Origin: Phoenix dactylifera | Lineage: Eukaryota; Streptophyta; Magnoliopsida; Arecales; Arecaceae | NCBI RefSeq assembly: GCF_009389715.1 | Contig: NC_052405.1 | Location: 13,584,194-13,648,193, forward strand | Length of the DNA stretch: 64,000 nt | Direction of reading: 5' to 3' | Part shown: one piece after another, positions 2,899-46,024 of the stretch | Position numbering within the stretch: position 1 is the first letter of the stretch | How the letters are laid out: each line of letters opens with the position of its first letter | Notes under the pieces: model-generated | The model's database searches: none | What the model was told of the DNA's origin: nothing | The model's input: the letters and a program-made list of their open reading frames with translations, nothing else | Made by a program: the position numbers and the translations under genes

Positions 2899-5034
2899 TT
2901 GGTTTTGATATAATTATGCTTTGCAAGTTGCAGCCAAAAAATACCTTGAAGGGAAAGAGATGCTGTAAATTTTCAGAACTTGTGATATTTTCTATAAATC
3001 AGCAACCTAACAAGCTTAATAGTATCAAAAATAAGGTGTGCACTTCGTTGATCTCTTTCTTCAACAATATATTCAGTTTTTTTTCACAGTTTAACTTCTC
3101 AGTTCTTGAATTACTATTCAAAATGCATTTATGTATGCAAGAATGTAGGATTTAATATGCATTTCTATCAAACTACATATCACCATGGAAATTCTTCTTA
3201 TGGTTCAAGGGGATACGGAAAATCCATCACCGATCACACTATTCTTTAGATTAAGGATGGTCCTCAACTCTTTCCTTTCAAAACACATTTATGTGTAGTG
3301 GAAAGGGATGGATTGTGTCTTGCTAACCACAGTTATGGGAGCATAATGACATGGAGAAGAAGTTTCCTAATGTTATGGTGGTTTATAAATCTCAATGAAT
3401 GAGAGCAATACAATGTGAAATGGGCTAGATTCATCTGGTGGGAAAGGAGTTTCATCATGGCACGTAATCCCTTATGCTAGGTGCTTGAGCTTATCATTTA
3501 ATTCCTTCATGATTTCATCAAGATCTCAACATGTCCTGTCAATGTTCGCTACAAATTCTAAAAATTCTTGCCAAGGATTGTTTAGATAATCAATCTATCT
3601 ATTAACAAAAGTTCACTTTCATACTAAATTGATGAAGGGAAAGGATTCAGGCTTTGTCATCTGTTGAGATTTTGCTGCCCAAATTTGCTATAGGTATTAC
3701 ATTAGGGTGAAGGAGCAATAGTTGTGAAGGGAGAAGTAATTTAAACCTATGTAGTGCAACCTTGGATGACAATCTACAATAGAAACATTATCCAATATAA
3801 CTATTTACGATGTTGAGAAGGAAACAACAAATCAGGAATGATATCAGCTGGTATGTTCCAATCTTTGTCCAAAAGGTGCAATCCTTGGCCCAAATAAAAG
3901 CAAAGACAGTGAAGCATTGAGATCTAAAATGAAAAGAGTGAGCTTGATTTGTTTAAAAAACTATATATACTACAAAGCAATACAATTACAACATTTTTCC
4001 GCCTCTTTATAGCTTAAGACAACACCAATAGGGTAAAGTAGGTTTCATACGAGAAAGGGCACCCTTTCATTATAACTATGACCTAACTAGAAAAGTTTGT
4101 AAGGATCATAATGAAATATTTCTTTAATGGAAGCTGTTCATAGCAAGTTCTGCAATTTCGATACCAGGTACGGTACCAGTATCGGTTTGAGATGTTATGG
4201 TATACACTCCGTATCGAAACAATCCTTTAACCATTTTTCTCAGTTTTTATCTCAATCCTCCTTGGCACAGATCACTAATACATAGCCGACCTAGGTGTTG
4301 GGTTCGAGGTATGACAAATATTTAAATATAATACTTTATTTTAATAAATAGTTTAAAGCAACCAATTTATTTAGCAAACTACCTAGATCACAGTTCACTT
4401 CAAACTTATTTTAAATGGTGTTGGCCTTAGGACGATTTTGTTGCCCCCTTCTTTACTATGGTTATTGGGCACCCAAATCAATAGATCCAAGGGCTTGGTG
4501 ATCAATTAGGAAGTCATAAGCTACTGTAATCATAAAAATCAGGGTTGGGCTGCTCAGTGACTTAGTATTTGATTTGTTGTTATATTGCCAAGCTTTGTGT
4601 TTCTAGTTTTGGGTACTTTTACAGTAGTTTGACCCTCGAAATATTATAGGATTCCATCTCATACTCTTAATCATACTAAAGCCAGATTGAAATGGACAAT
4701 ATCAAAAAATTAGGAAGTATAATAGTTTACACAGCGATCCCATAAAAATCATTAACTGACAAATTCTAATCAACTGTTATGTTGTTTTTACATGACAACT
4801 GCTTCTTTATATGGTTGTTCATTAATGCAGTGAGCCACGAGTGTTGAGGCACAAAATTTGAGTTTTTTTTTTCTTTTTTCTTTTTGATCTAAGGTGTTTT
4901 ATGTGACTTGAAACTGCATTATTCCCTCTATAGGGTTTTTCTAGGGTAATATCATGGTCATTTCAACATAGTCCATGTTAACATAGGCAGCTTTCAACAT
5001 TGTTTTTACCTGAGGGTCATCTCTTTTTGTTCAG
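2899..5034. other. AT-rich non-coding stretch
   Basis: To 4966 this is the right part of block A. From 4967 to 5034 it is intron sequence directly before a UPF2 exon. No gene, tRNA or clear transposon end was seen. A short CCGGTACGG-family trace (TACCAGGTACGGTACCAG) lies at about 4165-4190. Confidence 0.5.
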
Positions 5035-5286
5035 GCTTGTTTAGATGACTTCACTCATCAAAACATAGATGTTGCTTGCAATCTTCTTGAGACATGTGGC
5101 CGTTTTCTGTATCGATCTGCAGAAACAGCAATACGCATGGCAAACATGTTGGAAATAATGATTCGTTTAAAGAATGTCAAAATTTTGGATCCATGTCATA
5201 GTACACTGGTAGAAAATGCCTACTACTTGTGCAAACCACCTGAACGATCTGCTAGAGTTTCTAAAGTACGCCCTCCATTACATCAG
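5035..5286 (+). CDS. UPF2: UPF2 exon U8 (fragment L)
   Basis: 84 codons in phase 0, between TCAG at 5031-5034 and GT at 5287. The translation runs from ACLDDFTHQNIDVACN to KVRPPLHQ, part of the second MIF4G region. This exon has no partner in the main UPF2 locus, so fragment L is the only place in the window that carries it. Confidence 0.85.
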
Positions 5287-5374
5287 GTATCACATTAGTA
5301 CTTCTTCAATTCTTTTGTTCAGATTACACAGTTGCAATAAGTTGTGTAAGTTAATATATTGTTGTCTTCTGCTG

Positions 5375-5593
5375 TATATCAGGAAATTGCTTTTCTCAGA
5401 CCTCGATAAGTCAACTGTTGAACATGTTCTTAGGCAGTTGCGCAAGTTACCTTGGGCAGAATGCAAACCTTATATCTTAAAGTGCTTTTTGAAGGTCCAC
5501 AAGAGGAAGTACAGTCATGTTCATCTAACTGCTTTACTCACTGCAGGCCGCAGTCGCTATCATGATGAATTTGCAGTGGCAGTAGTAGATGAC
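5375..5593 (+). CDS. UPF2: UPF2 exon U9 (fragment L), acceptor site lost
   Basis: 73 codons from YIRKLLFSDLDK to the AVAVVDD end, which is followed by GT at 5594. The family sequence requires the exon to start at TATATCAGG (5375), but the two bases before it are TG. The nearby AG at 5381-5382 would put the exon in the wrong frame. This exon is also absent from the main locus. Confidence 0.8.
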
Positions 5594-5999
5594 GTCAGCT
5601 TTCTTGCTAGGGAATTTGTCTTTTTTTCCTTTTTTTAAAATTAATTATGAATATAAGAAACAGAGTCGTCTTCCTTCAAAAGCTAATTTAAGCTCCTATT
5701 GGTAGATCTTGAGGTATCTTGCATCATAACAGTATATGTTCTAGTTCATATTAAATCTCTCCTGACTACTGGTATCTTAAAGTTTTACATGTTCTGATAC
5801 ATGTGGATTTTATAGTTTCAAAATTGAGCATTCAAGTTAGTTTAGCAGATTATTCTGACTCGTCTCTTGTTCAGCTGTATTCTTTTATGGATTAGGTATA
5901 TCTAGGCTGGGTGTAATTTGTGGAAGTGTATACTCCTCATCTTCAAAATGTTTTTTTTGTTTTAAAAAAATTAAGGGGATCCCCATCTTAAAATGTGAT

Positions 6000-6672
6000 C
6001 GATGTCGGATGAACTGGTAGTGGGCACCATACCAGTTGCCTGGTGGGACAAGTCGGTTTCGGCCCATTCCGTGCCGTACGGGGCCCGTACCGACACAGTA
6101 GAGGAGGCAGGAGAGAGAGAAAAAGAGAGAGAGAAGGGGGAGAGAGGGAGGGAGGCCGGCGGAGGGTGGTGAAGGCCGGCGGAGGGCCGGTGGAGGCCGG
6201 CGGAGGGCCGTCGAAGGTCGGCGACCCGGGCAAGAGACGGAGGAAACCTTCGTTGCCAAAAACCAGGGCGGGTCCCCTGTTTCGTTCGAAACTGGGGTCC
6301 AACCCTTTTTTTTATTTTGCGGTTTTTAAGTGAAAGCAAATCATTTCGACTTGACTTAAAAATTGTAAAATAAAAAAGGGGGTCGAAACAAGAGACCCAC
6401 CCTATTTTTTGTTTGTGGAACTGCAGAGGCCGGAGGAGCGTCCTTCATGTGGCTAACCGGCCTCCGCCGGCTGGCTTCCACCTCTTCCTCTCTCTTCCTT
6501 CCACTCCCTCTCCCTCCCCCACTCGCTCTCTTTTTCTCTATTTCTTTCTCCTTCTCCCCCTCCGGCAATGGATTTTGTTTCTGTTGCTGGAACTGTGCCG
6601 GTCAGCCGTCGGAACGACTCGGAACGGCCGAAACCACCCTATTCGGGATGGTTTCACCGACCCTGTTTAGGA
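6000..6672. repeat. Fold-back GC/GA element, copy 1
   Basis: The left arm runs in this order: GGTACGG-type sequence, ACACAGTAGAGGAGGCAGG, (GA)n, GGCCGGCGGAGG units, then TTTCGTTCGAAA at 6280-6291. An AT-rich core with TTTTTAAGTGAA and ACTTAAAAATT follows. The right arm reverses the order: GTCGAAACAAG, CCGGCCTCCGCCGG, (CT)n, CCCCTCCGGCAA, then GGAACGGCCGAAACC and CGGGATGG. The arms are imperfect reverse complements, so the several open frames here are composition artefacts. It lies in the UPF2 intron between U9 and U10. Confidence 0.7.
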
Positions 6673-6992
6673 TCCTGAGATATGTAAAGTTTTTAGTATC
6701 CTCAGATTTGATTTTTTTTCTTTATCTTGTTAAATCTGAATTGATTAATATAATTTGCTAGAATTGCTACAAAAAGCTCCTTTTACATTTCATTTAGCTT
6801 TTATTTCAACAAGTTCGGTGCCTTTCATTTGATAAGGAAAGAATGATTTCTCTGGCTTTCATAATTTTAATGGAGACCTTCCCCTAGATTTCTCAATTAT
6901 ATAATTTGTCATATGTAGGTTTTGAGTTTTATGTTTTGTTGGTCAGAGTTAAATGAGTGGCGAGTTTGTTATTTTCTAAGCAAGGTCTGTTG

Positions 6993-7610
6993 TTCTGGTA
7001 CCGGGCATCGTACTAGTTGCCTGGCGGCATGAGTCGGTACGGGACCACGCCATGCTGTGCCGAGCCTGTACTGACACAGCAGAGGAGGCAGGAGAGAGAG
7101 TGAACAGGTGAGAGAAAAGGGAGAGAGGGAGGGGGAGAGGAGCGCTAGCGAAGTCCAGTGCCCGGATAGGTGGCGGAGGCTGCGGCTAGGTCTCTGTTTC
7201 GTTCGAAATAGGGTCCGACCGCTAAAAAATTTTGCAATTTTTAAGTGAAGTTTACAAAAAATATTTTAAAAAAATTAAGTGAAGTTGGCAATAGGTTTGC
7301 CGGCTTCAACTGAAATATGCAAAAATAAAAGGGCTCCCCTTCAGGCCCCTATTTCGAACGAAACAAGGGACTGGAGGTGGAGCCCCGCCTCCGCATCTCT
7401 CCGGCCTTTGCATCTTGGGACGACCTCTCTTCCCTCCTCTCCTTCTCCCTCCCTCCCCCATTCTCTCTCGTTTCCTTTTTTTTTCTCCTTCTATCCCTCC
7501 GAAGACGGCATTTCGGTTTGGTTGCTGGAACCGTCCCAGTTCGCCGCCGATACGGCTTGGTACGCTCTGAACCGGGCGGTTCGGGATGGTTCCGCTGACC
7601 ATATTCTGGA
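6993..7610. repeat. Fold-back GC/GA element, copy 2
   Basis: This copy has the same architecture as the one at 6000-6672. Here both central motifs are intact: TTTCGTTCGAAA at 7197-7208 and its exact reverse complement TTTCGAACGAAA at 7352-7363, about 145 bases apart around an AT-rich core. (GA)n and (CT)n tracts flank them, with CGGTACGGG and CGGTTCGGGATGG outermost. Confidence 0.7.
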
Positions 7611-8194
7611 GTTTCATCTCAGCATTTTTGGAAGTCGATGAAACTACAAGGAGGCTTGTTGGCCATTTAAGCCTTCTATCATTTTTGGGTTTCTTTTGAA
7701 GAATCAGCGTGATCTGGTCATTAGATGTATACCCTTTTGATCTAGTCATTGCACATACATTGCATATTTTTCGTTTCAACTCGTATGGAAGTTCATCTTT
7801 TGAGTACAAGTCATGTAATCACATGACATATGTAATATGTATCGAGGGGCCATATGTAAAAGATGGCCGACGGAAATTACAATGTGTTGAACATACTGAA
7901 TATAGAGATAAACAAGAAATAAGCAGCCAATAAATGTTCATGACATGTGTAAAGCCTAGACATCCGAAGTTTTATGAACCACAATATCATATTTCGCCAT
8001 ATCCATCCATCTTCTTTGGTCTCCTGTTCTGCTTTTCAACCCTTAAAACCTAAATATCAGAACACTTATTAAGATGCTCAGTAGAATTTTCCAGCCCCAA
8101 AGGTACTATGCTTTATTTTTTTCAGTTAATGGCTGGTGCATTTAAAAATATCATTGTATAATTATTTTTAAAAAAGAATGATAAACAATTTCAG
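7611..8194. other. UPF2 intron sequence, no feature seen
   Basis: AT-rich intron between the second fold-back element and exon U10. Short open frames here are unsupported. The same sequence recurs before 41919. Confidence 0.4.
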
Positions 8195-8365
8195 GTTTTG
8201 GAGGAGATTAGGCTTGGGTTAGAATTGAATGATTATGGAATGCAGCAGCAGCGCCTTGCTTACATGCGACTCTTAGGAGAGCTATACAACTATGAGCATA
8301 TTGATTCATCTGTAATTTTTGAAACATTATACTTGATTATCATTTTCAGCCATGGAACACCAGAA
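8195..8365 (+). CDS. UPF2: UPF2 exon U10 (fragment L)
   Basis: 57 codons between TTTCAG and GTAAGT, reading VLEEIRLGLELNDYG to FSHGTPE. This is part of the third MIF4G region. The near-identical partner is at 41919-42089. Confidence 0.85.
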
Positions 8366-10526
8366 GTAAGTAATGTGCCTTATTATTATTGATTATTGAA
8401 ATTCTTATTTGTATTTCTTACCTCAAGTTTTCAATTTTTATATTAATGTTTGTAGAAATTTTGTTGCTGGCATAGTGGAAAACATTACATGAATGATTAA
8501 AGTTAAAGCCATATCTGGTTTTTGGGATTTGGCAAGGGTTGGTTATTTGACTAACAGTTCTATTGCACTATATACTTGGTTAATTTGCATACCAGAAGTT
8601 AAAAAAAAATTATCAATTATTATATTCATCAAGGTTTTATATCTATTATGTTATGGATTCTACAAATTGATAACCTTGTTGACCTGCATTTGAGGGATTC
8701 ATGTATACAGATGACTGATCTATGATGCTTTTGAAATTTGAAGCTTAAAGCTTCTTAGATTTTGGTGATGAATGACTTAAATGGACAAAAAGTTAAACAA
8801 TTGTGGTCAAGCTTAAAATCTTCTGATTGCAAGTTCTAATTAGATCCTTGTTTCCAATGTTTTTGCATGACTTTATCCTAGTTGTTACATAATCATGAAA
8901 TGTCTTTTAATTTTATAAAATCCTGGATAATAGATTTATAATAGAAATGCTTTCTTCTCATGCTACTTGTGTCCTAATCACTTTTCTCCCATTAATTACT
9001 AGCGTTTTATTTTTGCTGTTTCTCTATTATTTTTTCCTTCTTGCCAAACCATGTAATACTATTTGAAACTGTTCTTACTTGGGGCATTTTTAAGTTAACT
9101 GTTTATGATCATGAAAACAGGAAGCTTTGCTCCAGTTAGTCACGATGTTAAAAATGCGATGTGAAATGGTCGCTAGGAGAGAACTGGTGTAACCAACTAC
9201 CAAAGCTTGATGTTTCTACATAGCTTCTGGATTCAATGTAGATAAAGACACTTCCTTCTCATTTCATGCTCTTTCAGTTTCTTGTGAGCAGGCTTGGGCA
9301 TTCCACAGAATCAACAATCTAAAAATTTGTTACAATCAAGTTTAGTCAATCAAGACATAATTTAAAAAAATTATGGTCAAGATTTGAGGTTGTTCATAAA
9401 GAATTATAAAGTACAGATGAAAAACAGATAAAAGTAATGTCGTGTACCCTTTGTTGCTGATGTTGGTGAGGCATAAGCTTGTAGAGTCCCACATGGGAGT
9501 TCCAGTTCATTTAATGGAACTCTAAACCAATGGGATCATCATTATTTCGAATGAAGGAAACTGCTAATTCTCAGTCATCATATGTAAAGTGTGGAAATCT
9601 TTAACTTTGAGCACTATGTACTTTAAAATACATAGCCTTTATGAAGATAATTAGTCCTATTGCAGTTTAGTAGAGGCTAGGAAACTTTAATTTTCTGCTA
9701 GTTATTAGTGATCAGATTGAATGGCCAGATCCACATGGCTGGCAGATTAAGGTGAAAGTAACTAAGACAGAATTTCAATATTATAGACAAGGAGGCTGAG
9801 ATATACTGAATACCCACCTAATTACTCGAGGTCCGGAGCACTCTTCAGTTTAGCCATGATATATTGACAGAATATGGTTCTTGTGGAAATATATAACATG
9901 CGATTCTTTCAATAGTATACTGCTTGTGCATATCCGTATCTTGCATACTTTCATCATAAAGCAATACATTTTCTTTGGGGTACATAGGGACTATATTAAC
10001 ATATGTAAAAATCAGACATGAAGATGCATGGAGATAGTGTGTTGCGATCAAACAACAGCTTTTCTAGTTATGTGAAAAAATAAAGGCAGTACAACAAAGA
10101 GAAGGAGAATAAGAAAGAGGGTAAGAGAACTAATGCTCTGAAGTCTGAATGCACAAATTGCCAACTGTTGTTCCTTATCTTATTACTGTAACTTCTAGAA
10201 ATCTCGGGGGTAAAGACAAAAACTGCATCATTGTTCAAAAGTTAAGATATTGACAGAATCATAATTGGTAGATGCATATATTCGATACAAGAATGGCACA
10301 AGCATTGACTGCAATATGCCCAACACATCAAAAACATGATGTTGTTTTAATTCATTCAGTTATTTGGTGTTGTGAATAGCATTTTAACTTTGCAATCTGA
10401 ACTTGTCCTTGTTCATGAAATCAAGTTTTTCTTTTCCTTCATTTTTCTACTTCATGTAACATGATGGAAATATTCTTTGGCCAATTTTTCTTATTAGTGC
10501 ATTTTTTTATTTTTCTTATTGTAAAG
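8366..10526. other. UPF2 intron U10-U11, with one exon-like stretch at 9121-9192
   Basis: AT-rich intron. A stretch after AACAG at 9121 reads 23 in-phase codons (EALLQLVTMLKMRCEMVARR...) to TAA at about 9190. It does not match any part of UPF2 that I know. In the duplicate the acceptor reads ACTG instead of ACAG. Nothing else is recognised. Confidence 0.35.
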
Positions 10527-10712
10527 CAAGATGCACTGGATCCACCAGAAGACTACTTTCGGATCAGGATGATAAAAACACTTCTTCAGACATGCGGTCG
10601 CTATTTTGATCGAGGTTCTTCAAAGAGGAAACTTGATAGATTTTTGATATATTTTCAGAGATACGTCCTTAGCAAAGGTCCAATACCACTAGATATTGAG
10701 TTTGACATTCAG
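10527..10712 (+). CDS. UPF2: UPF2 exon U11 (fragment L)
   Basis: 62 codons from QDALDPPEDYFRIRM to PLDIEFDIQ, between AAAG and GTTAGT. It ends the third MIF4G region. Codon 29 is CGA (10611-10613); the duplicate at 44240-44425 has TGA at this codon. Confidence 0.85.
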
Positions 10713-10792
10713 GTTAGTTAAAATTTGCTTGTCAAGTAGTTATTTATTTTTCTATCATCCAATAGTGGTCATCCTATTTCCAGTAAGTTGCT

Positions 10793-11062
10793 TTGAGCCT
10801 CCTAGCATGTAAGGTTATTTTAGAATTGTCAATGCACTTGTCATACCTTATAGTTACAATTATTTTGTGTATGCAATGTGATGCAGCAAAGGGTACAACC
10901 AATAGGTACTATGACCAGCTAGACCATGCCAAGCGTTGGAGGAGTCAGCTGAAAGTTTTCCAGTTTCATACTTGTCAGCTAGCTAAAGTCGAGAAACAAA
11001 ATATGGAATTTTATAACCCTCTGCCTGTGCCACATATGCCAATCAAAAGGAAGAGGAAGTAA
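10793..11062 (+). other. Unrecognised reading frame ending in KRKRK
   Basis: An 89-codon frame whose last 60 or so codons look protein-like (DAAKGTTNRYYDQ ... FYNPLPVPHMPIKRKRK, stop at 11060-11062). A TGCAG acceptor-like site precedes it near 10887. It sits directly after UPF2 U11, where the family sequence calls for U12, and is not part of UPF2. The duplicate at 44506-44775 is also open, but the copies are too alike for that to show selection. Part of it recurs inverted at 45099-45166. Origin unknown. Confidence 0.3.
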
Positions 11063-11078
11063 ACTGGAGCAAAGAGGT

Positions 11079-14000
11079 TGCACCCAATGAAGACGTCGGT
11101 GTTGAGCAACATGGCATGATGAGCTTTTCTCCTTAATTGCCTGAATAGAAGCTGTAGGAAGCACACCTTGTTCTACATAGGTTGTGATTTTTTATATCAT
11201 GAAATATATTTATGACCATTTTGTAGATGAGAATATTGCCTATTTACATTGAGTTTGTAATCATTTTTTCCAAGCTTTACACAGCAAGAAATAAACAAAT
11301 TATGCACTTCACAACCAATATTAAGCATTGCATTGATGTGATTTTCTATGGTCCTTTTGATTGTTCATTTGTAAATTAATTCAATAAACTACAGTTTCAC
11401 TTTTTAGGAGATGTTTAGTTTCCACGAAGACTCATTCTTGAAAAAAAAAAATACTAAGCCATCCCGTGGGAACGAGATCAGGCCCAACTCCTCGCCCTTC
11501 ATCCACTCGTATCCGCCCAACCAGCCATATAAACCCAACTAAATCGACACCAAGAGTCTCATTTGTAAACTAAATATAAGCTACTTTGGAATGTACCACT
11601 TTTCATGGTTAACCAAACATATAAAAACAACTTTCTCGGGCATCATGTTCTTGTTATTTATTTAACAATTCTATTAGTCTGTCATCTTAAAAGATCTTTT
11701 TCTCCATGCTCGGCGGGGAACCTCGGTAACTTCTTGAATGGGAAGGTAGCTTGTTTGAGAATATAGGTGATGTACCGATGAGCTTCCGATAACGAAAGAA
11801 AAGGCTGGCAGCGACCCACCCGCTTGAATGTAATTCATAATCATGATATTTTGTGATTTTGCAATGTATGCTTTTATCTGAAATGAAGTTTGGCTGCATG
11901 TTGTAAATTCAGAAAAATGACAAGATCATGCAACTGAGAGTTTATTTGAGTAGTATCATTCAAGCTCACAACCCCTTCCTTCATACACTTTCCTTCTTAG
12001 CTCTCTCTCTCTCTCTCTCTCCCCTTCACAATCCAGACATCCTAAAACAACCTTTTTAGTTTATTTTATTTGAAACAAGTAAGAGAAATGGAACGAGAAT
12101 GTATATATACGTGAAAACCTTCAATTTAGCATTACTATTCCTGTCAATCAATTATGCAATCTTGAGATATTTTGCTAGTGCAGTAATTCTAGGATAGCTC
12201 TAACAATCATAGTTTGGCTAAAAAGATTCAGAGTTATAGGATGATCACAGATTAGCAAGATCCTGTGATTTAGCAAGAGATTTTGCATACTTGAATAGAA
12301 GCTGCAGGAAACACCACCTAGTCCTACATAGGCTGGTGATTTCTTATGTCATGAAATATATATACGACAATTTTGAAGGTGAAAATATTGACGATTTATG
12401 TTGAGCTTGTAATTGTTTTCTCCAGAAGATAGAAGCAGTTTTACACTAAGAGAAATAAAGAAATTGTGCTTCACGACCAGCATTAAGCTTTGCATTGATG
12501 TGATTTTCTATGGTTCTTTTGGATTGTTTATTTGTAAATTGATTCAATAAATCACAATTTCAGTTTTTAGGGGAGGTTTTGAAAGGACAGGAGCGAAACC
12601 GTTGAAAGCACTAAAAGTTTCCATGAAAAGGAAACCAATGAAAAGCTATTTTTTTCAGGAACTAGAGTTTTGAGTCAAGTCTGCCGTACCGATCGGTACG
12701 GATCGGCACGAGCCGGTATGTTCCGTACCGGTACCGGATGGGCCGGTACGTACCGACTCGGTTCCGGCCCGTACCGACCGGTATCGGCCCATGCCGACCT
12801 CAATTTTTTTTTGGCTTTTGGCCTAAACCAGCTGAACCGGTACAGTATCGATTCGGTTCGGTATGGTACTGGTACCGTACCGGTACCGGTGCCCACCGGT
12901 ACGTCGGTACGGTTGGTACAACAAACCTTTTGTTATAATTGTGCTTAACCTTTTGATATATTTTCTGTAAATCAGCAACCTGACAAGCTTAATAGTATCA
13001 AAAATAAGGTGTGCACTTCGTTGATCTCTTTCTTCAACAATATATTCAGTTTTTTTTCACAGTTTAACTTCTCAGTTCTTGAATTACTATTTAAGATGCA
13101 TTTGTGTATGCAAGAATGTAGGATTTAATATGCATTTCTAGCAAACTACACATCACCATGGAAATTCTTCTTGTGGTTCAAGGGGATACGGAAAATCCAT
13201 CACCGATCACACTATTCTTTAGATTAAGGATGGTCCTGAACTTTTTCCTTTCAAAACACATTTATGTGTAGTGGAAAGGGATGGATTGTGTCTTGCTAAC
13301 CACAGTTATGGGAGCATAATGACACGGAGAAGAAGTTTCCTAATGTTATGGTGGTTTATAAATCTCAATTAATGAGAGCAATATAATGTGAAATGGGCTA
13401 GATTCATCTGGTGGGAAAGGAGTTTCATCATGGCACGTAATCCCTTATGCTAGGTGCTTGAGCTTATCATTTAATTCCTCCATGATATTCATCAAGATCT
13501 CAACATCTCCTGTCAATGTTCGCTACAAATTCTAAAAATTCTTGCCAAGGATTGTTTAGATAATCAATCTATCTATTAACAAAAGTTCACTTTGATACTA
13601 AATTGATGAAGGGAAAGGATTCAGGCTTTGTCATCTGTTGAGATTTTGCTACCCAAATTTGTTATAGGTATTACATTAGGGTGAAGGAGCAATAGTTGTG
13701 AAGGGAGAAGTAATTTAAACCTATGTAGTGCAACCTTGGATGACAATCTACAATAGAAACATTATCCAATATAACTATTTATGTTGTTGAGAAAGAAACA
13801 ACAAATCAGGAATGATATCAGCTAGTATGTTCCAATCTTTGTCCAAAAGGTGCAATCCTTGGCCCAAATAAAAGCAAAGACAGTGAAGCATTGAGATCTA
13901 AAATGAAAAGAGTAAGCTTGATTTTTTAAAAAATATATATATACTACAAAGCAATACAATTACAACATTTTTCTGCCTCTTTATAGCGCAAGACAACACC

Positions 14001-14939
14001 ATTAGGGTAAAGTAGGCTTCATACGAGAAAGAGCACCCTTTCATTATAACTGTGACCTAACTAGAAAAGTTTGTAAGGATCATAATGAAATATTTCTCTA
14101 ATGGAAGCTATTCATTGCAAGTGCAGCAATATCGATACCAGGTATGATACCAGTATCGGTTCGAGATGTGATGATATACACTCCGTATCGAAACAATCCT
14201 TTAACCATTTTTCTTAGTTTTCATCTCAATACCTAGGCACAGATCACTAATACGTAGCCGACCTAGGTGTTGGGTTCGAGGTATGACAAATATTTAAATA
14301 TAATACTTTATTTTAATAAATAGTTTAAAGCAACCAATTTATTTAGCAAACTACCTAGATCACAGTTCACTTCAAACTTATTTTAAATGGTGTTGGCCTT
14401 AGGACGTTTTGTTGCCCCCTTCTTTACTATGGTTATTGGGCACCCAAATCAATAGATCCAAGGGCTTGGTGATCAATTAGGAAGTCATAAGCTACTGTAA
14501 TCATAAAAATCAGGGTTGGGCTGCTCAGTGACTTAGTATTTGGTTTGTTGTTATATTGCCAAGCTTTGTGTTTCTAGTTTTGGGTACTTTTACAGTAGTT
14601 TGGCACTCGAAATATTATAGCATTCCATCTCATACTCTTAAGCATACTAAAGCCAGATTGAAATGGACAATATCAAAAAATTAGGAAGTATAATAGTTTA
14701 CACTGGATCCCATAAAAATCATTAACTGACAAATTCTAATCAACTGTTATGTTGTTTTTACAAGACAACTGCTTCTTTATATGGTTGTTCATTAATGCAG
14801 TGAGTCACGAGTGTTGAGGCACAAAGTTTGAGGTTTTTTCTTTTTCTTTTTTCTTTTTGATCTAAGGTGTTTTATGTGACTTGAAACGGCATTATTCCCT
14901 CTACAGGGTTTTTCTAGGGTAATATCATGCTCATTTCAA
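11079..14939 (+). repeat. Duplicated non-coding block B (truncated copy of block A)
   Basis: Matches 548-4966 with scattered substitutions and one deletion of about 0.5 kb near 11455-11470. Its left end joins the UPF2 intron sequence at TGCAC, shared by both parents of the junction. Its right end stops at TTTCAA, after which the sequence is unrelated to A. It contains no NAC coding sequence. Confidence 0.88.
12683..12927. repeat. CCGGTACGG-rich dispersed repeat (block B copy)
   Basis: The block B version of 2594-2898, about 60 bases shorter and partly rearranged. It is full of GGTACGTACCG, GGTACCGG and their reverse complements. Confidence 0.7.
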
Positions 14940-16447: not shown

Positions 16448-16451
<4 letters not shown>

Positions 16452-22800: not shown

Positions 22801-22803
22801 TGT

Positions 22804-26280: not shown

Positions 26281-26299
26281 CTTGGGATTGGTGCTAGCA

Positions 26300-32566: not shown

Positions 32567-32599
32567 GAACTACCTAGAATTTGCTAAGTTTTATGCTAC

Positions 32600-36873: not shown

Positions 36874-36978
36874 TTCTTTAAAGGCCTTAATGTCACTGCA
36901 GATCAAAAGAAGTTCTTCAAGAAAGCATTGCACTCATATTATGATGCTGTAGCTGAACGACTTCAATCTGAGCATAAT
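36874..36978 (+). CDS. UPF2: UPF2 exon U4
   Basis: 35 codons after CTTGCAG, reading FFKGLNVTADQKKFFKKAL and then HSYYDAVAERLQSEHN, followed by GTAAGT. It continues the first MIF4G region and is intact. Confidence 0.88.
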
Positions 36979-37189
36979 GTAAGTTTTGGAACTGTCTAAA
37001 ATTTTGGCATAATCTGAATATGCTTCTCTTAGCCTGGTTGAGCATGTGCTGCTTGCTTTGATTGTAATTCATTTGCTTTACCCTTCATTTTTGATGTATT
37101 AGTATAATCCTTTTATGTTTTTCCATGTTTGTGCAACAACTTTCCAGAAGCATTGAATAATATTGATTTTTTTTTTTTATACTATGCAG

Positions 37190-37317
37190 TCTCTTCGAAT
37201 GCTGGAACTTGAGAATGCAAAGATCTCGAGTGCTAAAGGGGAGCTTAGCGATGAGAATGCAGCTTCATACGAGAAGCTTAGGAAATCTTATGATCACTTA
37301 TTTCGTTGTGTCTCCTC
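37190..37317 (+). CDS. UPF2: UPF2 exon U5
   Basis: 128 bases after TATGCAG, reading SLRMLELENAKISSAKGELS and then DENAASYEKLRKSYDHLF, ending in phase 2 at GTAAGA. Intact. Confidence 0.88.
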
Positions 37318-38287
37318 GTAAGATCGTTAGCCAAACTTTCTATCTTGATATTTTGCTTTGAACTTAAATGTCTCATAGTTCCTAGTCTAATGTCTTTTCT
37401 TGTTTTCATGAGTAGATTAATCTCTTTATTATATTGTAATGCAAACTCAGAAATCCTGCCTTTATCTTAATATGTCACTTTGAGTTACCATTATCTTTGT
37501 ATATGCTATTATCTCTAGTATACATACTTCTTTTGGTTCAGTTCTCAATCTTTTAAGGAAAGAGTTCGGAGATGTACCAATTAAACGCGGAAACTTTCTT
37601 TCAAATTACATAATTTACAAAAGTCTTTAGTTAGAAGAGGTACCGACAACCAGTTGTGCTTCCACATGTGCATTGCATGTGCCAATGACAATTGCTATTT
37701 TATGTTGCAAGCTCTCAGCTTGATTTTATGTTCCAGTGTCACTCTTGTATGACTACACATGCTCGTCTTTAGTGAATACAAACCTTTTGCTTCATTTCTG
37801 TCTTGAAGAGACAGGAGAAGCATACTATGTAATAGGGGGAGTATCCTTTTCAAGTTACATGTCTCAGTGGAGAAAAGTTTTCAATCAGAATGGACTCGTT
37901 ACTTCATCTGTCAGTCATGTCTATATGAGCTCGAAGTCTTCATAAATGCACATCCTTAGGTTTGATTTTGTACTCCTCTCTGAGGGAGAGAAATAAGAGG
38001 TGTGTCAGCCCAGTTCATTTATCCAGTTTCATAAATAATAGAAAGTAATCTGTTAGCTAATGGGAAACCGTAGCCGTCAATTTTTCCTTTCATGTGCCTA
38101 ACACATGCCAAACATTAGTTTATTGATGTTGCATGCTTTTTGCACCTTTTCTCTCTTCCTTCTATAAATTTTCTTTCTTTCTTTCTTTCGTTTTTTCTTC
38201 CTGCCTTTTATTTATTTCTCATTAGCTTCATTATTGTGCTTCCATCTACAATCTCATTCTTTTTTTCCCCTATTTTTCGGTATACAG
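37318..38287. other. UPF2 intron U5-U6
   Basis: AT-rich, with a TTTC repeat near 38168-38190. No other feature seen. Confidence 0.4.
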
Positions 38288-38464
38288 TTTAGCTGAGGCC
38301 CTTGATATGCAACCTCCAGTAATGCCAGATGATGGGCACACGACTAGGTTAACCACAGGTGTGGATGTACCATCTTCCGCTTCTGGAAAGGAGTCTTCTG
38401 TGCTTGAACCTGTGTGGGATGATGAAGACACAAGGGCATTTTATGAATCCTTACCTGATCTGAG
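38288..38464 (+). CDS. UPF2: UPF2 exon U6
   Basis: After ATACAG the frame reads LAEALDMQPPVMPDDGHTTR through EPVWDDEDTRAFYESLPDLR, the conserved linker after the first MIF4G region. It ends at GAG before GTTGGT. Intact. Confidence 0.88.
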
Positions 38465-38640
38465 GTTGGTTAAAACTTTTACTAGTGTTGTTTATGCTAT
38501 CGTTCAGAACTATTATATAGAATTTATACTCTCTGAATTTTCAGTTAAAGATACTGTTCTTATTTATCTATGTGAGAGATTTCTGTTATTTCTGTTTGTT
38601 TGTAGTTCATGTGATACAAATTGGCTTATTTTGTAACCAG

Positions 38641-38722
38641 AGCTTTTGTTCCTGCTGTATTATTGGGAGAAGCAGAACCGAAGTCGAATGAGCAACATCC
38701 AAAGACACCAGAACGACAAAAT
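38641..38722 (+). CDS. UPF2: UPF2 exon U7
   Basis: After AACCAG the frame reads AFVPAVLLGEAEPKSNEQHP and then KTPERQN, followed by GTAAGG. The next family exons, covering the first part of the second MIF4G region, are not found before the duplicated block starts at 39387. Confidence 0.87.
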
Positions 38723-39696
38723 GTAAGGATGAAATGGTTATCTTCTGGCATCTCTCTAATGAGTTTTAAAAGTTTATGAAAAGAATATATTGCCTTAAAA
38801 TTTGCATTAATTTTTCTGAGAATGGTGTACTGTAATCAAATTTGTTAGGGAACTAATAATCTTAGAAGCTGAGTGCTCCTTATCATGTTACTGAAGTAGC
38901 AAGTATAGAGCCATCAGGAGCATGATAGTTTTACTATCAGAGATCTCATTTAGTATTTTTTGTGTTTGAAAATGCCTTAAAAATTTTATCCCAAAAAACC
39001 TTAAAATTCTGCTCAGGGTTATGGGTATTGTTACACTTAAAGGGTGATTTGCCCTAGCATCATTTTTCCATGGTTAGTTTGTCTGTTAAAATCCGAAAAT
39101 GGTAAGATTGAACTGAAACGATGTCTTCCACTAATTGTTTAGTGTGACTTTGCTGAGCTTGGTTCCATATCTTAGTTGTAAAAAAATGAGAATTGATAGG
39201 GGAATGATAGTGACGTAAAAGGAGTGGGGATGCATCCTTTGGCAAATGTCAGGTTCTTAAACCACCAAGGGAAAACTGTTGGAACATATATTTATTTGCA
39301 CATGCATATATGTTCTTTTGAGATGTTCAGTTGCAGTTTTTCTAATGCTGTTGCGTGTGTTCGAAGGGATGGTGTGATATGCAAGGTTCCTATTGGTAGA
39401 TCTTGAGGTATCTTGCATCATAACAGTATATGTTCTAGTTCATATTAAATCTCCCCTGACTACTGGTATGTTAAAGTTTTACATGTTCTCCATGTGGATT
39501 TTATAGTTTCAAAATTGAGCATTCAAGTTAGTTTAGCAGATTATTCTGACTTATCTCTTGTTCAGCTGTATTCTTTTATGGATTAGGTATATCTAGGCTG
39601 GGTGTAATTTGTGGAATTGTACACTCCCCAGCTTCAAAATGTTTTTTTTTGTTTTAAAAAAATTAAGGGGATCCCCATCTTAAAATGTCAATTTAG

Positions 39697-40330
39697 GATC
39701 AATATCGGCTGAACCGATATTGGGCACCATACCAGTTGCCTGGTGGGACAAGTCGGTTTGGGCCCGTTTCGTGCCGTACGGTGCCCGTACCGACACAGTA
39801 GAGGAGGCGGGGGAGAGAGAAAAGAGAGAGAGAAGGGGGAGAGAGGGAGGGAGGCCGGCGGAGGGCCGGCGGAGGGCCGTCGAAGGTCGGCGACCCGGGC
39901 AAGAGACGGAGGAAACCTTCGCTGCCAGAAAACAGGGCGGGTCCCCTGTTTCGTTCGAAACTATGGTCCGACCCTTTTTTTATTTTGCAGTTTTTAAGTG
40001 AAAGCAAATCATTTTGACTTCACTTAAAAATTGTAAAATAAAAAAAGGGGTCGAAACAAGAGATCCGCCCTATTTTTCGTTTGTGGAGCCGCAAGGGCTG
40101 GAGGAGCATCCTTCGCATGGCTAGCCGGCCTCCGCCGGCTGGCTTCCACCTCTCCCTCTCCCTCTCCCTCCCCTGCTCGGTCTCTTTTTCTCTCTTTCTT
40201 TCTCCTTCTCCCCCTCCGGCAACGGATTTCGTTTCTGTTGCTGGAACCGTGTCGGTCAGCCGTCGGAACGACTCGAAACAGCCGAAACCGCCCTATTCAG
40301 GACTATTCCACTGACCCTGCTTAGGATCCT
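39697..40330. repeat. Fold-back GC/GA element, copy 3
   Basis: Partner of 6000-6672, with TTTCGTTCGAAA at about 39949-39960 and a shorter GGCCGGCGGAGG array. Arms, (GA)n, (CT)n and AT-rich core are in the same order. Confidence 0.7.
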
Positions 40331-40645
40331 GAGATATGTAAAGTCTTTAGTTTCCTCAGATTTGATTTTTTTCTTTATCTTGTTAAGTCTGAATTGATTA
40401 ATATAATTTGCTAGAATTGCTACAAAAAGCTCCTTTTACATTTCATTTAGCTTTTATTTCAACAACTTCGGTGCCTTTCATTTGATAAGGAAAGAATGAT
40501 TTCTCTGGCTTTCATAATTTTAATGGAGACCTTCCCCTAGATTTCTGAATTATATGATTTGTCATATGTAGGATTTGAGTTTTATGCTTTGTTGGTCAGA
40601 GTTAAATGAGTGGCGAGTTTATTATTTTCTAAGCAAGGTCTGTTG

Positions 40646-41333
40646 TGCTAATATCGGGCATCGTACTAGTTGTTCGGTGGCACGAGTCGGTACGGGCCCA
40701 CGCCATGCTGTACCGGGCCTGTACTGAAACAGCAGAGGAGGCAGGAGAGAGAGTGAACATGTGTGAGAAAAGGGAGAGAGGAGCGCTGGCGGAGGCCGGC
40801 GCCCGGACAGGAGGCGGAGGCTGCGGCTAGGTCTCTGTTTCGTTCAAAATGGGGTCCGACCGCTAAAATTTTTGCAATTTTTAAGTGAAGTCGCAAATCA
40901 TTTGCTGACTTCACTTAAATATCGTGAAATTACAAAAAATATTTTTAAAAAATTAAGTGAAGTTGGCAATAGGTTTGCCGGCTTCAATTGAAATCTGCAA
41001 AAATAAAGGGCCTCCCTCCGGGCGCCTGTTTCGAACGAAACAAGGGACCGGAGGTGGAGCCCCGCCTCCGCATCTCTCCGGCGTTTGCCTCCTCCCCACG
41101 GAGGCTCCCTGGCCTCCGCCGGCCAGCCTTGGACGACCTCTCTTCCTTCCTCTCCCTCTCCCTCTCCCTCTCCCTCCCTCCCCCATTCTCTCTCGTTTCC
41201 TTTTTTTTTCTCCTTCTATCCCTCCGAAGACGGCGTTTCGGTTTGGTTGCTGGAACCGTCCCAGTCCGCCGTTGATACGGCTTGGTACGCTCCGAACTGG
41301 GCGGTTCGGGATGGTTCCGCTGACCATATTCTG
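40646..41333. repeat. Fold-back GC/GA element, copy 4
   Basis: Partner of 6993-7610. It keeps an extra core segment of about 40 bases (near 40890-40930) with TTTAAGTGAAGTCGC and GACTTCACTTAAA facing each other. Its right arm keeps CCTGGCCTCCGCCGGCC. Copy 2 lacks both, so this is the more complete version. Confidence 0.7.
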
Positions 41334-41918
41334 GAGTTTCATCTCATGATTTTTGGAAGTCGATGAAACCATAAGGAGGCTCGTTGGCCATTTAAGCCTT
41401 CTGTCATTTTTGGGTTTCTTTTGAAGAATCAGTGTGATCTGGTCATTAGATGTATACCCTTTTGATCTAGTCATTGCATATACATTGCATATTTTTTGTT
41501 TCAACTCGTATGGAAGTTCATATTTTGAGTACAAATCATGTAATCACATGACATATGTAATATGTATCGAGGGGCCATATGTAAAAGATGGCCAACGGAA
41601 ATTACAATGTGTTGAACATACTGAATATAGAGATAAACAAGAAATAAGCAGCCAATAAATGTTCATGACATGTGTAAAACCTAGACATCCGAAGCGCTAT
41701 GAACCACAATATCATATTTTGCCATTTCCATCCATCTTCTTTGGTCTCCTGTTCTGCTTTCCAACCCTTAAACCTAAATATCAGAACACTTATTAAGATG
41801 CTCGGTAGAATTTTCCAGCCCCGAAGGTACTATGCTTTATTTTTTTCAGTTAATGGATGGTGCATTTAAAAATATCATTGTATAATTATTTTTAAAAATG
41901 CATGATAAAAAATTTCAG

Positions 41919-42089
41919 GTTTTGGAGGAGATTAGGCTTGGGTTAGAATTGAATGATTATGGAATGCAGCAGCAGCGCCTTGCTTACATGCGATTCTTAG
42001 GAGAGCTATACAACTATGAGCATATTGATTCATCTGTAATTTTTGAAACATTATACTTGATTATCATTTTCGGCCATGGAACACCAGAA
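41919..42089 (+). CDS. UPF2: UPF2 exon U10' (main locus)
   Basis: 57 codons between TTTCAG and GTAAGT, the same as 8195-8365 apart from two residues (MRFLGEL and IFGHGTPE here, both the more usual family residues). Confidence 0.85.
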
Positions 42090-44239
42090 GTAAGTAATGT
42101 GCCTTATTATTATTGATTATTGAAATTCTTATTTGTATTTCTTACCTCAAGTTTTCAATTTTTATATTAATGTTTGTAGAAATTGTTGCTGGCATGGTAG
42201 AAAACATTACATGAATGATTAAAGTTAAAGCCATATCTGGTTTTTGGGATTTGGCAAGGGTTGGTTATTTGACTAACAGTTCTATTGCATTATATACTTG
42301 GTTAATTTGCATACCAGAAGTTAAAAAAAAATATCAATTATTATATTCATCAAGATTTAAAACCAATATGTTATGGGTTCTACAAATTGATAACCTTGTT
42401 GACCTGCATTTGAGGGATTCATGTATACAGATGACTGATCTATGATGCTTTTGAAATTTGAAGCTTAAAGCTTCTTAGATTTTGGTGATGAATGACTTAA
42501 ATGGACAAAAAGTTAAACAATTGTGGTCAAGCTTAAAATCTTCTGATTGCAAGTTCTAATTAGATCCTTGTTTCCAATGTTTTTGCATGACTTTATCCTA
42601 GTTGTTACATAATCATGAAATGTCTTTTAATTTTATAAAATCCTGGATAATGGATTTATAATAGAAATGCTTTCTTCTCATGCTACTTGTGTCCTAATCA
42701 CTTTTCTCCCATTAATTACTGGCATTTTATTTTTGCTGTTTCTCTATTATTTTTTCCTTCTTGCCAAACCATGTAATACTATTTGAAACTGTTCTTACTT
42801 GGGGCATTTTTAAGTTAACTGTTTATGATCACGAAAACTGGAAGCTTTGCTCCAGTTAGTCACGATGTTAAAAATGCGATGTGAAATGGTCGCTAGGAGA
42901 GAACTGGTGTAACCAACTACCAAAGCTTGATGTTTCTACATAGCTTCTGGATTCAATGTAGATAAAGACACTTCCTTCTCATTTCATGCTTTTTCAGTTT
43001 CTTGTGAGCAGGCTTGGGCATTCCACAGGCTCAACAATCTAAAAATTTGTTACAATCAAGTTTAGTCAATCAAGACATAATTTAAAAAAATTATGGTCAA
43101 GACTTGAGGTTGTTCATAAAGAATTATAAAGTACAGATGAAAAACAGATAAAAGTAATGTCGTGTACCTTTTGTTGCTGATGTTGGTGAGGCATAAGCTT
43201 GTAGAGTCCCACATGGGAGTTCCAGTTCATTTAATGGAACTCTAAACCAATGGGATCATCATTATTTCAAATGAAGGAAACTGCTAATTCTCAGTCATCA
43301 TATGTAAAGTGTGGAAATCTTTAACTTTGAGCACTATGTACTTTAAAATACATAACCTTTATGAAGATAATTAGTCCTATTGCAGTTTAGTAGAGGTCAG
43401 GAAACTTTAATTTTCTGCTAGTTATTAGTGATCAGATTGAATGGCCAGATCCACATGGCTGGCAGATTAAGGCGAAAGTAACTAAGACAGAATTTCAATA
43501 TTATAGACAAGGAGGCTGAGATATACTGAATACCCACCTAATTACTCAAAGTCCGGAGCACTCTTCAGTTTAGCCATGATATATTGACAGAATATGGTTC
43601 TTGTGGAAATATATAACATGCGATTCTTTCAATAGTATACTGCTTGTGCATATCCGTATCTTGCATACTTTCCTCATAAAGCAATAAATTTTCTTTGGGG
43701 TACATAGGGACTATATTAACATATGTAAAAATCAGACATGAAGCTGCATGGAGATAGTGTGTTGCGATCAAACAACAGCTTTTCTAGTTATGTGAAAAAA
43801 TAAAGGCAGTACAACAAAGAGAAGGAGAATAAGAAAGAGGGTAAGAGAACTAATGCTCTGAATGCACAAATTGCCAACTGTTGTTCCTTATCTTATTACT
43901 GTAACTTCTAGAAATCTCGGGGGTAAAGACAAAAACTGAGTCATTGTTCAGAAGTTAAGATATTGACAAAATCATAATTGGTAGATGCATATATTCGATA
44001 CAAGAATGGCACAAGCATTGACTGCAATATGCCCGACACATCAAAAACATGATGTTGTTTTAACGCATTCAGTTATTTGGTGTTGTGAATAGCATTTTAA
44101 CTTTGCAATCTGAACTTGTCCTTGTTCATGAAATCAAGTGTTTCTTTTCTTTCATTTTTCTACTTCATGTAACATGATGGAAATATTCTTTGGCCAATTT
44201 TTCTTATTAGTGCATTTTTTTATTTTTCTTATTGTAAAG

Positions 44240-44425
44240 CAAGATGCACTGGATCCACTAGAAGACTACTTTCGGATCAGGATGATAATAACACTTCTTC
44301 AGACATGCGGTCACTATTTTGATTGAGGTTCTTCAAAGAGGAAACTTGATAGATTTTTGATATATTTTCAGAGATACGTCCTTAGCAAAGGTCCAATACC
44401 ACTAGATATTGAGTTTGACATTCAG
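44240..44425 (+). CDS. UPF2: UPF2 exon U11' with in-frame stop
   Basis: Matches 10527-10712, but codon 29 is TGA (44324-44326) instead of CGA, so the reading frame ends after GHYFD. The splice sites are unchanged. A single C-to-T change explains the difference. Confidence 0.85.
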
Positions 44426-44505
44426 GTTAGTTAAAATTTACTTGTCAAGTAGTTATTTATTTTTCTATCATCCAATAGTGGTATTCCTATTTCCAGTAAG
44501 TTGCT

Positions 44506-44775
44506 TTGAGCCTCCTAGCATGTAAGGTTATTTTAGAATTGTCGATGCACTTGTCATACCTTATAGTTACAATTATTTTGTGTATGCAATGTGATGCAGC
44601 AAAGGGTACAACCAACAGGTACTATGACCAGCTAGACCACGCCAAGCGTTGGAGGAGTCAGCTGAAAGTTTTCCAGTTTCATACTTGTCAGCTAGCTAAA
44701 GTCAAGAAACAAAATATGGAATTTTATAACCCTCTGCCTGTGCCACATATGCCAATCAAAAGGAAGAGGAAGTAA
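44506..44775 (+). other. Unrecognised reading frame ending in KRKRK, second copy
   Basis: Duplicate of 10793-11062, still open. It lies inside the intron between U11' and U12. Family unknown. Confidence 0.3.
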
Positions 44776-45098
44776 ACTGGAGCAAAGAGGTTGCACTTTG
44801 AATATTAACATGCAAATAAAAGTAAACTGGATTGAAGAACCCTTTAACTTGGTGATGGAAATTCTTTTGAAAAATTGTATTAACATGCCAAAGGCTACCT
44901 CTTACAATGTATTATACACATATTTATAGGATATAATCCCCTAACCCTAATTCGGGCATTAAACTCGATACGAAATCATACTTGAAATAGGACTCGACAA
45001 TAAGGAAACATGCTGGAGTTATTCTTCTACAAATATGGAAATCTGGCTAAAATTTGATATTGTTCTTAATGAAAAATCTATAAGAAAATTTGATGAAT

Positions 45099-45166
45099 CC
45101 ACTGGCTCCTCCAATGCTGGTTATAGTACATGTTGGTTGTATCCTGTGCTGCATCACAATGTGCAT
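45099..45166 (-). repeat. Inverted fragment of the KRKRK-frame sequence
   Basis: On the minus strand this reads TGTGATGCAGCACAGGATAC and so on to TTGGAGGAGCCAG, matching 44590-44665 with a gap of about 16 bases. The two lie in opposite orientation about 0.5 kb apart. Confidence 0.6.
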
Positions 45167-45470
45167 AATTCTTATGCTTTGAAAAAGTCACATATCTCTT
45201 TTTAGCTTTGACTATGGAAATAAAGTTCTTTTTATAGTATTGCTGAATGAAACATAGAGATTCTGGCTGATTGGATTTTGGTTTGTCAATTGGCACCTCT
45301 CTCCTTGTTGCTAGCTCCAAGGAGAGGATCCAGGTTTGATCCTGGCATGTGACCCTCCCACTATAATTCTTGGAAAACAAAAAGAAATAAAAGAAGAAAC
45401 AAAGAAATTCTGCATTTATTCTGCATTAATAAATTTAGTGGATATTTCTCATTAATTAAAATGCTTGCAG

Positions 45471-46024
45471 GATATGTTCGCCGATTTACAACCAAACATG
45501 ACTCGATACTCATCCATTGAGGAAGTTAATGCGGCACTGATTGAACTTGAAGAACATGAGCGCATAGCCTTAATGGAGAAGGCCAGCAGTGAGAAACACT
45601 CTGATGGTGAATCTCAGAAAGCTCCATCCCAAACAACTACAACCATCAAAGCCAATGGCAGCAGTGTAGCAAACAGAATGGAGGAAAATGGCAGGGTCCA
45701 GGAAGAACCACCAGATAGTGAAAGCTATTCAGATAGTGGCAGCATTGATCAGGAGGGACATGAAGACGAGGAAGATCTGTTGTATGAGGACAAATCAGAT
45801 GACAGATCTGAAGGGGATGGCGACGATGAAGATGATGGGGGACCCATTGGTTCTGATGAGGAAGACATGTCCAGGTCAGGCAGAAGTTGGTGGAAGTTAA
45901 TCCGAAGAAGGAAGAGGAATTTGACCGGGAAATGAGAGCCCTGATGCAGGAGAGTTTGGAGTCCCGCAAATTAGAGCTACGGGCAAGGCCCACTCTGAAC
46001 ATGATGATACCAATGAATATTTAA
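45471..46024 (+). pseudogene. UPF2: UPF2 exon U12 (acidic C-terminal region), frameshifted and truncated
   Basis: After GCTTGCAG the frame reads DMFADLQPNMTRYSSIEEVN and then an acidic Ser/Glu/Asp-rich stretch to GSDEEDM. Near 45870 the frame slips by one base. From 45875 the shifted frame reads VRQKLVEVNPKEEEEFDRE and then ALMQESLESRKLELRARPTL to NMMIPMNI and TAA at 46022-46024. In intact UPF2 the protein continues for over a hundred more residues, including the UPF1-binding part. I find none of that downstream. The unshifted frame runs to a stop at 45933-45935 and its last 20 or so residues are not UPF2-like. Confidence 0.85.

Follow-up and report, generated by a model that had tools for sequence, protein, structure and literature searches.

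Two partial UPF2 copies in Phoenix dactylifera are most probably decayed pseudogenes of a tandem array

Results

The stretch of Phoenix dactylifera DNA analyzed here, hereafter the window, comprises 64,000 nucleotides of contig NC_052405.1 (C14) and holds two partial copies of the RNA-surveillance gene UPF2. We are highly confident that it belongs to a real tandem array whose unit starts in UPF2 intron 1 and contains, in this order, an Armadillo-repeat gene, a regulatory double-NAC gene, blocks A and B of flanking sequence and a COX24_C-domain gene, and that the UPF2 remnants are decayed pseudogenes. That confidence applies to the explanation as a whole, in which the remnants have no selected role and full UPF2 is supplied by a gene putatively placed at the left of the array (on C1140, with a version on C915) and by a distant C10 paralog. 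The joints, the order of features on other contigs and the shared lesions are direct observations, and genes are called open on the basis of exon models.

The UPF2 identity proposed earlier from the letters alone was borne out by similarity to known UPF2 and MIF4G domains, with sequence matches of the window exons to PDB entries 4cem (E 4.8e-18), 1uw4 (E 9.8e-11) and 4lun, and of remnant 1 exons 12-13 to Pfam MIF4G (E 5.5e-15). The window lacks a complete open coding sequence with a start and the UPF1-binding Upf2 C-terminal domain. Its Pfam Upf2 match covers profile positions 6-61 of 133 and includes one TAA, exon 4 of remnant 2 alone scores 25.5 bits (below the cut-off of 30.8), and a Pfam search with the exon 16 part of remnant 2 returned no family. 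Self-comparison agrees with the earlier note that the two copies share a 5.4-kb block, with 7427-11083 equivalent to 41150-44796 (97.3%) and 5694-7251 to 39388-40891 (89.3%).

Comparison with the uninterrupted C1140 gene resolved remnant 1 (4967..11083, forward strand) into exons 12 (5035-5286), 13 (5375-5592), 14 (8195-8365) and 15 (10527-10712) with their introns, and no other UPF2 exon; these equal the exons U8-U11 to which the earlier note had limited this piece. A disabling lesion is present, the exon 13 splice acceptor being changed from AG to TG in all three small-remnant copies examined. Intron 15 contains an open frame of 57 aa (10889-11059), which was rejected as a UPF2 exon, having no Pfam match and no counterpart in the C10 stretch; it is probably repeat-derived, since 16 of the 42 matches in the search with the joint at 11079..11083 are short fragments at other places overlapping this frame.

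By the same comparison, remnant 2 (20188..46022, forward strand throughout) is a pseudogene with exons 2 (20458-20545), 4 (32216-32554), 5 (36874-36978), 6 (37190-37317), 7 (38288-38464), 8 (38641-38722), 14 (41919-42089) and 15 (44240-44425, with an in-frame TGA) and parts of exons 3 and 16. Exon 3 keeps 90 of its 203 nt in two copies (26693-26782 and 27727-27816), within a damage region (26690..28383, forward strand) where a 450-bp deletion cut the exon and a 1.03-kb tandem duplication followed. The region also contains a 328-bp tandem repeat, and this damage, seen in the window copy, was not seen in the left C14 copy or the C580 copy. Exon 16 (45471-46022) retains the first 553 of 984 nt with a 1-nt frameshift and an early TAA; at 46021..46022 (J5) a 547-bp deletion has removed the exon's end and created a TAA. 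Missing altogether are exon 1 with the ATG, because the left edge is a joint in UPF2 intron 1 (20187/20188), and exons 9-13. The earlier assignments stand in that U1-U7 are exons 2-8, all retained here, and the absent exons are U8 and U9 with the three that precede them. Through exon losses and disabling lesions neither copy could make full UPF2, as had been claimed. Overlooked at that stage were the absence of exon 1 and its ATG, the cut and doubled exon 3, the exon 15 TGA, the exon 16 frameshift and TAA, and the lost exon 13 acceptor of remnant 1.

The features around the remnants all lie on the forward strand. The window opens inside the preceding unit, with the 3' end of its NAC gene and the flank downstream of it, block A (1..2704); of this stretch, 1-2521 recurs at 59416-61933 (97.5%) and 1400-2704 at 11484-12789 (93.8%). 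Block B (2985..4966), a flank downstream of NAC, corresponds over 2985-4966 to 12958-14939 (96.5%). Beyond remnant 1 lie block A' (11079..12789), identified by self-comparison as NAC 3' flank with its first part missing, and block B' (12958..14939), which continues natively beyond 14939. They are followed by a COX24_C-domain gene (16480..16891) with halves in different frames, which we take to be mitochondrial mS38-like. As claimed earlier, A and B blocks precede each UPF2 part; B' does not directly adjoin remnant 2, since the COX24_C gene stands in between. Farther right are an Armadillo-repeat gene fragment (46543..47031), which adjoins UPF2 in the unit, the double-NAC gene (58012..59954; 473 codons), open in all five copies by the exon model, and the NAC end with block A'' (59416..61934) at the right of the window's unit.

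Four joints connect these pieces and were searched for elsewhere. J1 (4966..4967), the right edge of block B, is a tandem-duplication joint beyond which UPF2 sequence starts 68 bp upstream of exon 12; at J2 (11079..11083) a deletion has joined UPF2 intron 15 to the position 9 bp past the NAC stop codon; J4 (39387..39390) is an 8.1-kb deletion removing exons 9-13; and J8 (20187..20188) is a large tandem-duplication joint from the downstream flank to UPF2 intron 1. Shared bases amount to 1 bp at J1, 5 bp at J2, and 2 bp at both J4 and J5. The junctions listed earlier at 4966/4967, 11079-11083 and about 39387 are real; that at 14939/14940 is native sequence, through which 7 of 13 matches run straight, and the B/B' similarity merely stops there. 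The real join at 20187/20188 was absent from that list.

J1 is whole at 4 of 16 matches, split by an insertion at one further place (two rows), and represented by its B side alone at 7 and its UPF2 side alone at 3 (C1140, C915, C10). Whole matches number 5 of 42 for J2 and 5 of 16 for J4 (C14 twice, C580 three times). For J8, 6 of 13 are whole, one further place is split (two rows), 2 show the flank side alone (C14:13654952, C915:99090) and 3 the UPF2 side alone (C1140, C642, C10). Each of the four, none of them unique in the assembly, is a single alignment at 4-6 places including the window, among them both C14 units and C580; J1, J2 and J8 occur on C915 as well, and J8 on C1140. As in tandem segmental duplications, the units stand head to tail, repeating every 65 kb or so on C14, and the sides of the joints occur singly elsewhere. 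J4 follows J8 in only 3 of 7 places, the split one included, so the loss of exons 9-13 is shown for part of the units; no J4 join was found after J8 on C915, on C1140 or at C580:80103, and at C580:12190 the contig ends before the J4 position is reached.

These recurrences bear on the suggestion in the earlier note that the assembly had joined two haplotypes of one UPF2 locus end to end. The paired blocks are 89-97% alike, which very high heterozygosity in the plant could produce; nearly identical small contigs are present; and 79 kb to the left of the window, at the array's left edge, C14 is interrupted by a 100-N gap (C14:13505279-13505378). However, misassembly is very unlikely when each of four searched joints recurs as a single alignment at 4-6 places, in several diverged units and contigs. 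In addition, the lesions described below are shared, meaning that the ancestral copy was broken beforehand, and the one-sided counterparts of J8 and J1 sit where the array model places them. We consider a haplotype join highly improbable.

The in-frame TGA of exon 15 and the identical cut point of exon 16 are present in all four large remnants examined, and such common lesions indicate descent from an already broken copy; frameshifts or cut exons occur in three of these four. A tree places the small remnants in one clade and the large remnants in another (support 100/99 each) and is silent on which arose first. The two classes and the parent differ from one another by 2.2-3.2%, and copies inside one class by 0.1-1.1%. 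The dN/dS ratio is 0.42-0.73 in six remnant-parent comparisons versus 0.13 between the parent and C10. Values below 1 are expected for the remnants because half of the path is the constrained parent, and may also be compatible with weak constraint on the remnants.

A search for intact UPF2 elsewhere in the genome was positive. By exon models, C1140 carries an uninterrupted 16-exon gene of 1,192 aa and C10 a distant paralog of 1,196 aa; the C915 version may have its 5' part on C642. The uninterrupted founder gene is on small separate contigs, apart from C14, where no complete Upf2 match was found, so that its place at the gapped left edge of the array is putative. Both carriers of the undeleted gene (C1140 and C915) show UPF2 first, then the NAC end, then block B (partial on C1140, 562 of 1,982), with J8 further on. 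This order disfavours the ancestral arrangement of NAC, block A and UPF2 that had been proposed. According to that history, an ancestral NAC-A-B-UPF2 block was duplicated whole, and the 5' half of one copy (copy 1) and a middle part of the other (copy 2) were then lost. Within the window A/B blocks do come ahead of both remnants, and the tandem duplication and the middle loss of copy 2 (the 8.1-kb deletion) stand. The loss of a 5' half by deletion in copy 1 is disfavoured, its left edge being better read as a tandem-duplication boundary. Furthermore, no B or NAC-end match was found, among the matches listed, in the roughly 11.6 kb between C1140 exon 1 and the contig end; directly ahead of copy 2 stand the COX24_C gene and the joint that leads into intron 1; and at both right ends the flank follows B without UPF2. 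Such a history therefore has very little chance of being correct.

Discussion

The mechanism and the sequence of events within the tandem array are inferred from these observations. J1 would date from the tandem duplication, either before or after that at J8, of a segment whose ends lie 68 bp ahead of exon 12 and at the right edge of B. Within the copy so made, a deletion would have removed everything between intron 15 and a point shortly beyond the NAC stop codon (J2), so that exons 12-15 stand between B and A'. J8 presumably arose in a larger tandem duplication that brought UPF2 intron 1 next to the flank downstream of the COX24_C gene; because the duplicated segment begins in that intron, the resulting UPF2 copy would lack exon 1 and the native promoter. 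A copy of this type would then have been damaged by the loss of exons 9-13 and of the last part of exon 16 and by a new stop codon. Further duplication of the unit that carried it, for which unequal crossing-over between the long and similar units is the most likely route, would account for the C14 period. A prediction set beforehand was that the flank after the right-most C14 block B passes the 20187 point without UPF2, at an expected position of 13655815 (13650567 + 5,248). The flank side alone ends at 13655841 on C14 and likewise at 99979 on C915.

That the remnants are expressed and adjust nonsense-mediated decay through truncated UPF2 or through small RNAs is, in our estimation, still less probable than the two readings weighed above. 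The large remnants keep the majority of their splice sites, the 8.1-kb deletion preserves the frame since the junction of exon 8 with exon 14 is in phase 0, and exon 14 is unchanged from the parent in all five large-remnant copies seen. Nevertheless, exon 1 and the founder promoter are absent, the stop in exon 15 and the frameshifts or cut exons interrupt the copies as described, and dN/dS is close to the relaxed-constraint expectation. An equally slim chance attaches to an array transcribed perhaps by read-through from the preceding unit's intact double-NAC gene, with in-frame exon 8-14 products or small RNAs dampening nonsense-mediated decay and copy number between haplotypes acting as a dosage dial.

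The locus is very probably the product of ordinary gene duplication and decay and not of an assembly error. It illustrates clearly how partial tandem duplication, twice over and followed by array growth, can mimic complementary gene halves or an assembly error, and it is a warning for annotation that UPF2 matches here are not genes; within the unit, the double-NAC gene may remain constrained. No description of this locus was found in the available parts of the literature on UPF2 and tandem pseudogenes in plants.

Tandem duplications with a boundary inside a gene have been studied, for example in Drosophila yakuba (PMC5460883). The likeness lies in a new copy that lacks one gene end; the array differs in having two nested partial UPF2 duplications per unit and a unit that is itself repeated. 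Compared with UPF2 (regulator of nonsense transcripts 2), the window exons match the same structures (4cem, 4lun, 1uw4) and the C1140 gene has 16 open exons, whereas the window copies lack exons 1 and 9-13, or are restricted to exons 12-15, and carry disabling lesions. A further close system is the unprocessed (duplicated) pseudogene, with introns kept, disabling lesions first shared and then private, and an intact parent elsewhere, from which the remnants differ in nothing essential.

Uninterrupted UPF2 genes and anatomy of the remnants

The UPF2 assignment in the window is supported by matches of exons 2-4, as a typed join (E 4.8e-18), and of exon 14 (E 9.8e-11) to solved UPF2 entries. Across the searched genome (773 Mb, 2,391 contigs) the Pfam Upf2 domain was matched seven times. 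Three matches, on contigs C10, C915 and C1140, are complete without stops, and the other four, each with a TAA, break off at position 61; of these, C14, the contig on which the window spans 13584194-13648193, carries two (one inside the window) and C580 the other two. For the C1140 gene, assembled from neighbouring stretches of that contig, the exon model gives 16 coding exons, separated by GT-AG introns, in a single open frame of 1,192 aa, and the C10 paralog encodes 1,196 aa; the placement of UPF2 exons leaned partly on a UPF2 protein sequence. The complete domains and the open C1140 and C10 genes show that the genome holds uninterrupted UPF2 besides the window copies. Contig C915 starts within its UPF2 gene, which was read over 3.4 kb around the last exon, and a C642 stretch carrying the intron 1 side may be the missing other part. 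The genome-wide search with J4, the joint at 39387-39390, found no deletion in the exons 9-13 region of the C915 gene.

With exons defined against the C1140 gene, the small remnant (4967-11083) comprises exons 12-15 and their introns; its left edge lies 68 bp upstream of exon 12 and its right edge within intron 15. The large remnant (20188-46022) begins in intron 1 and retains exon 2, partial exon 3 twice, exons 4-8, 14 and 15 and 553 nt of the 984-nt exon 16. Missing from it are exon 1 and the 8.1 kb holding exons 9-13; neither remnant contains exons 9-11. Because the junction of exons 8 and 14 is in phase 0, the 8.1-kb deletion by itself leaves the frame intact. All four large remnants examined (a fifth, only partly present on C580, was excluded) share a TGA in exon 15 and an identical early end of exon 16. 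Further lesions are an exon 16 frameshift and a cut exon 3 in the window, an exon 4 frameshift and loss of the exon 3 acceptor in the left C14 copy, and a cut exon 5 in one C580 copy. The small remnants have lost the exon 13 acceptor (3/3 examined), and the left one also carries a stop in exon 15. Intron 15 of both window remnants (10889-11059 and 44602-44772) and of the C1140 parent contains a 57-aa open frame ending in a stop, for which the C10 stretch gave no match; fragments of it recur on other contigs, and it probably derives from a transposable element. The paired segments 5694-7251 and 39388-40891 are indel-rich (89% versus 97% in adjoining sequence) and resemble repeat pieces near 29319-29719. 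A 151-bp inverted pair (28909-29059 and 31742-31892, 97%) was also observed; its first member is absent from the parent and thus looks like a small insertion.

Recurrence of the joints

The unit is present again leftward on C14 (97.6-99.0% over long blocks) and on C580. In genome-wide counts that include the window, J1 (4966/4967, flank block B to UPF2) was intact at 4 of its 16 matches, with an insertion splitting it at one further place; J4 was intact at 5 of 16, and J8 (20187/20188, flank to UPF2 intron 1) at 6 of 13, again with one further place where it is split. J2 (11079-11083, UPF2 intron 15 to NAC 3' flank) was intact at 5 of 42 matches from the 40 scored candidates out of 85; the other matches were UPF2 side only (7), NAC side only (9) or short pieces of 54-80 bp (21). 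Both C14 units and C580 carry all four joints; C915 also carries J1, J2 and J8, and C1140 also carries J8. J5 (46021/46022, the lost end of exon 16) was compared in fetched copies only. The earlier note had offered an assembly joining two haplotypes as the alternative, and a single bad join cannot account for joints that recur across units and contigs. Two observations do count against a genuine array: C14 is without the founder UPF2 gene, and a 100-N scaffold gap (window coordinate -78914 to -78815) bounds the array on the left. This gap may be the place of the uninterrupted founder now on small contigs.

Origin and age of the array

J8 behaves as a tandem-duplication joint. Its flank side stands alone at the array right end, at C14:13654952-13655841 and at C915:99090-99979, and UPF2-only matches lie in founder intron 1 (C1140, C642) and in C10. 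The lone flank side was predicted before the search: calculation from the window gave 13655815, and the flank-only match on C14 ended 26 bases away. The pattern at J1 is similar, with B alone at 7 matches and the UPF2 side alone at 3. J2, J4 and J5 read as deletions, the latter two against C1140. Shared bases at the joints are few (J1 1, J2 5, J4 2, J5 2 bp; at J8, read from one side only, the overlap between one-sided alignments is 2 bp), suggesting that the founding events arose by end joining. The position 14939/14940, previously listed as a joint, proved native, with 7 of 13 matches passing through it, both right ends included. Nor was the proposed ancestral order of NAC, block A and UPF2 supported: along UPF2, C1140 and C915 give UPF2, NAC end, B and J8, with only 562 of the 1,982 bases of B matching on C1140. 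Window 17737-18268 matches C10 downstream of its UPF2 gene (74.6%) and 52191-52427 upstream (70.9%), in reversed order relative to C10; these matches would be either traces of old flanks or shared repeats.

In a tree of the shared 3.66-kb block, the small (n=3) and large (n=4) remnants form separate clades (100/99 each); the tree does not separate the order of the duplications behind J1 and J8. Divergence is 2.2-3.2% among small, large and parent and 0.1-1.1% within a class, by which the founding events would predate the spread of the array. With a plant substitution rate of roughly 6e-9 per site and year, rough dates would be about two million years for the founding and 0.1 to 0.9 million years for the subsequent spread. 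The units differ, with J4 following J8 at only 3 of 7 J8 places; the genome-wide J4 search found none after J8 on C915, C1140 and C580:80103, and at C580:12190 the contig ends after J8, before the J4 point.

Selection and other features of the window

Remnants compared with the parent gave dN/dS of 0.42-0.73 (6 comparisons, unequal-length exons and the fourth large remnant omitted), the constrained parent forming half of each path; parent against C10 gave 0.13 (10/16 exons). The window also contains Armadillo, COX24_C and double-NAC genes besides UPF2, a set that together with the introns would suit a flowering plant. By exon model, the double-NAC gene (58012-59954) has two NAC modules in one frame over six exons and is open over 473 codons in all five array copies fetched. 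Its dN/dS was 0.12-0.26 in 7 of 10 pairs, with silent differences only in the other 3, and its exons overall are not less diverged than introns (e.g. 19 of 1,422 versus 6 of 589). Given these small numbers, selection on this gene is a lead only. The COX24_C (mS38-like) gene at 16480-16891 has its N- and C-terminal halves in different frames, which would mean that it contains an intron, carries a frameshift or is a pseudogene. A GC-rich 80-bp tandem repeat lies at 48387-48891 (6.3 copies, 90% matches); both of its strands carry long open frames but probably no genes.

The observation of two partial UPF2 copies was itself correct and careful, and self-comparison of the window recovered the shared blocks. 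From the sequence comparisons, we infer that its cause is an ordinary one, namely partial tandem duplications nested within one another, decay of the copies as pseudogenes and growth of the array.
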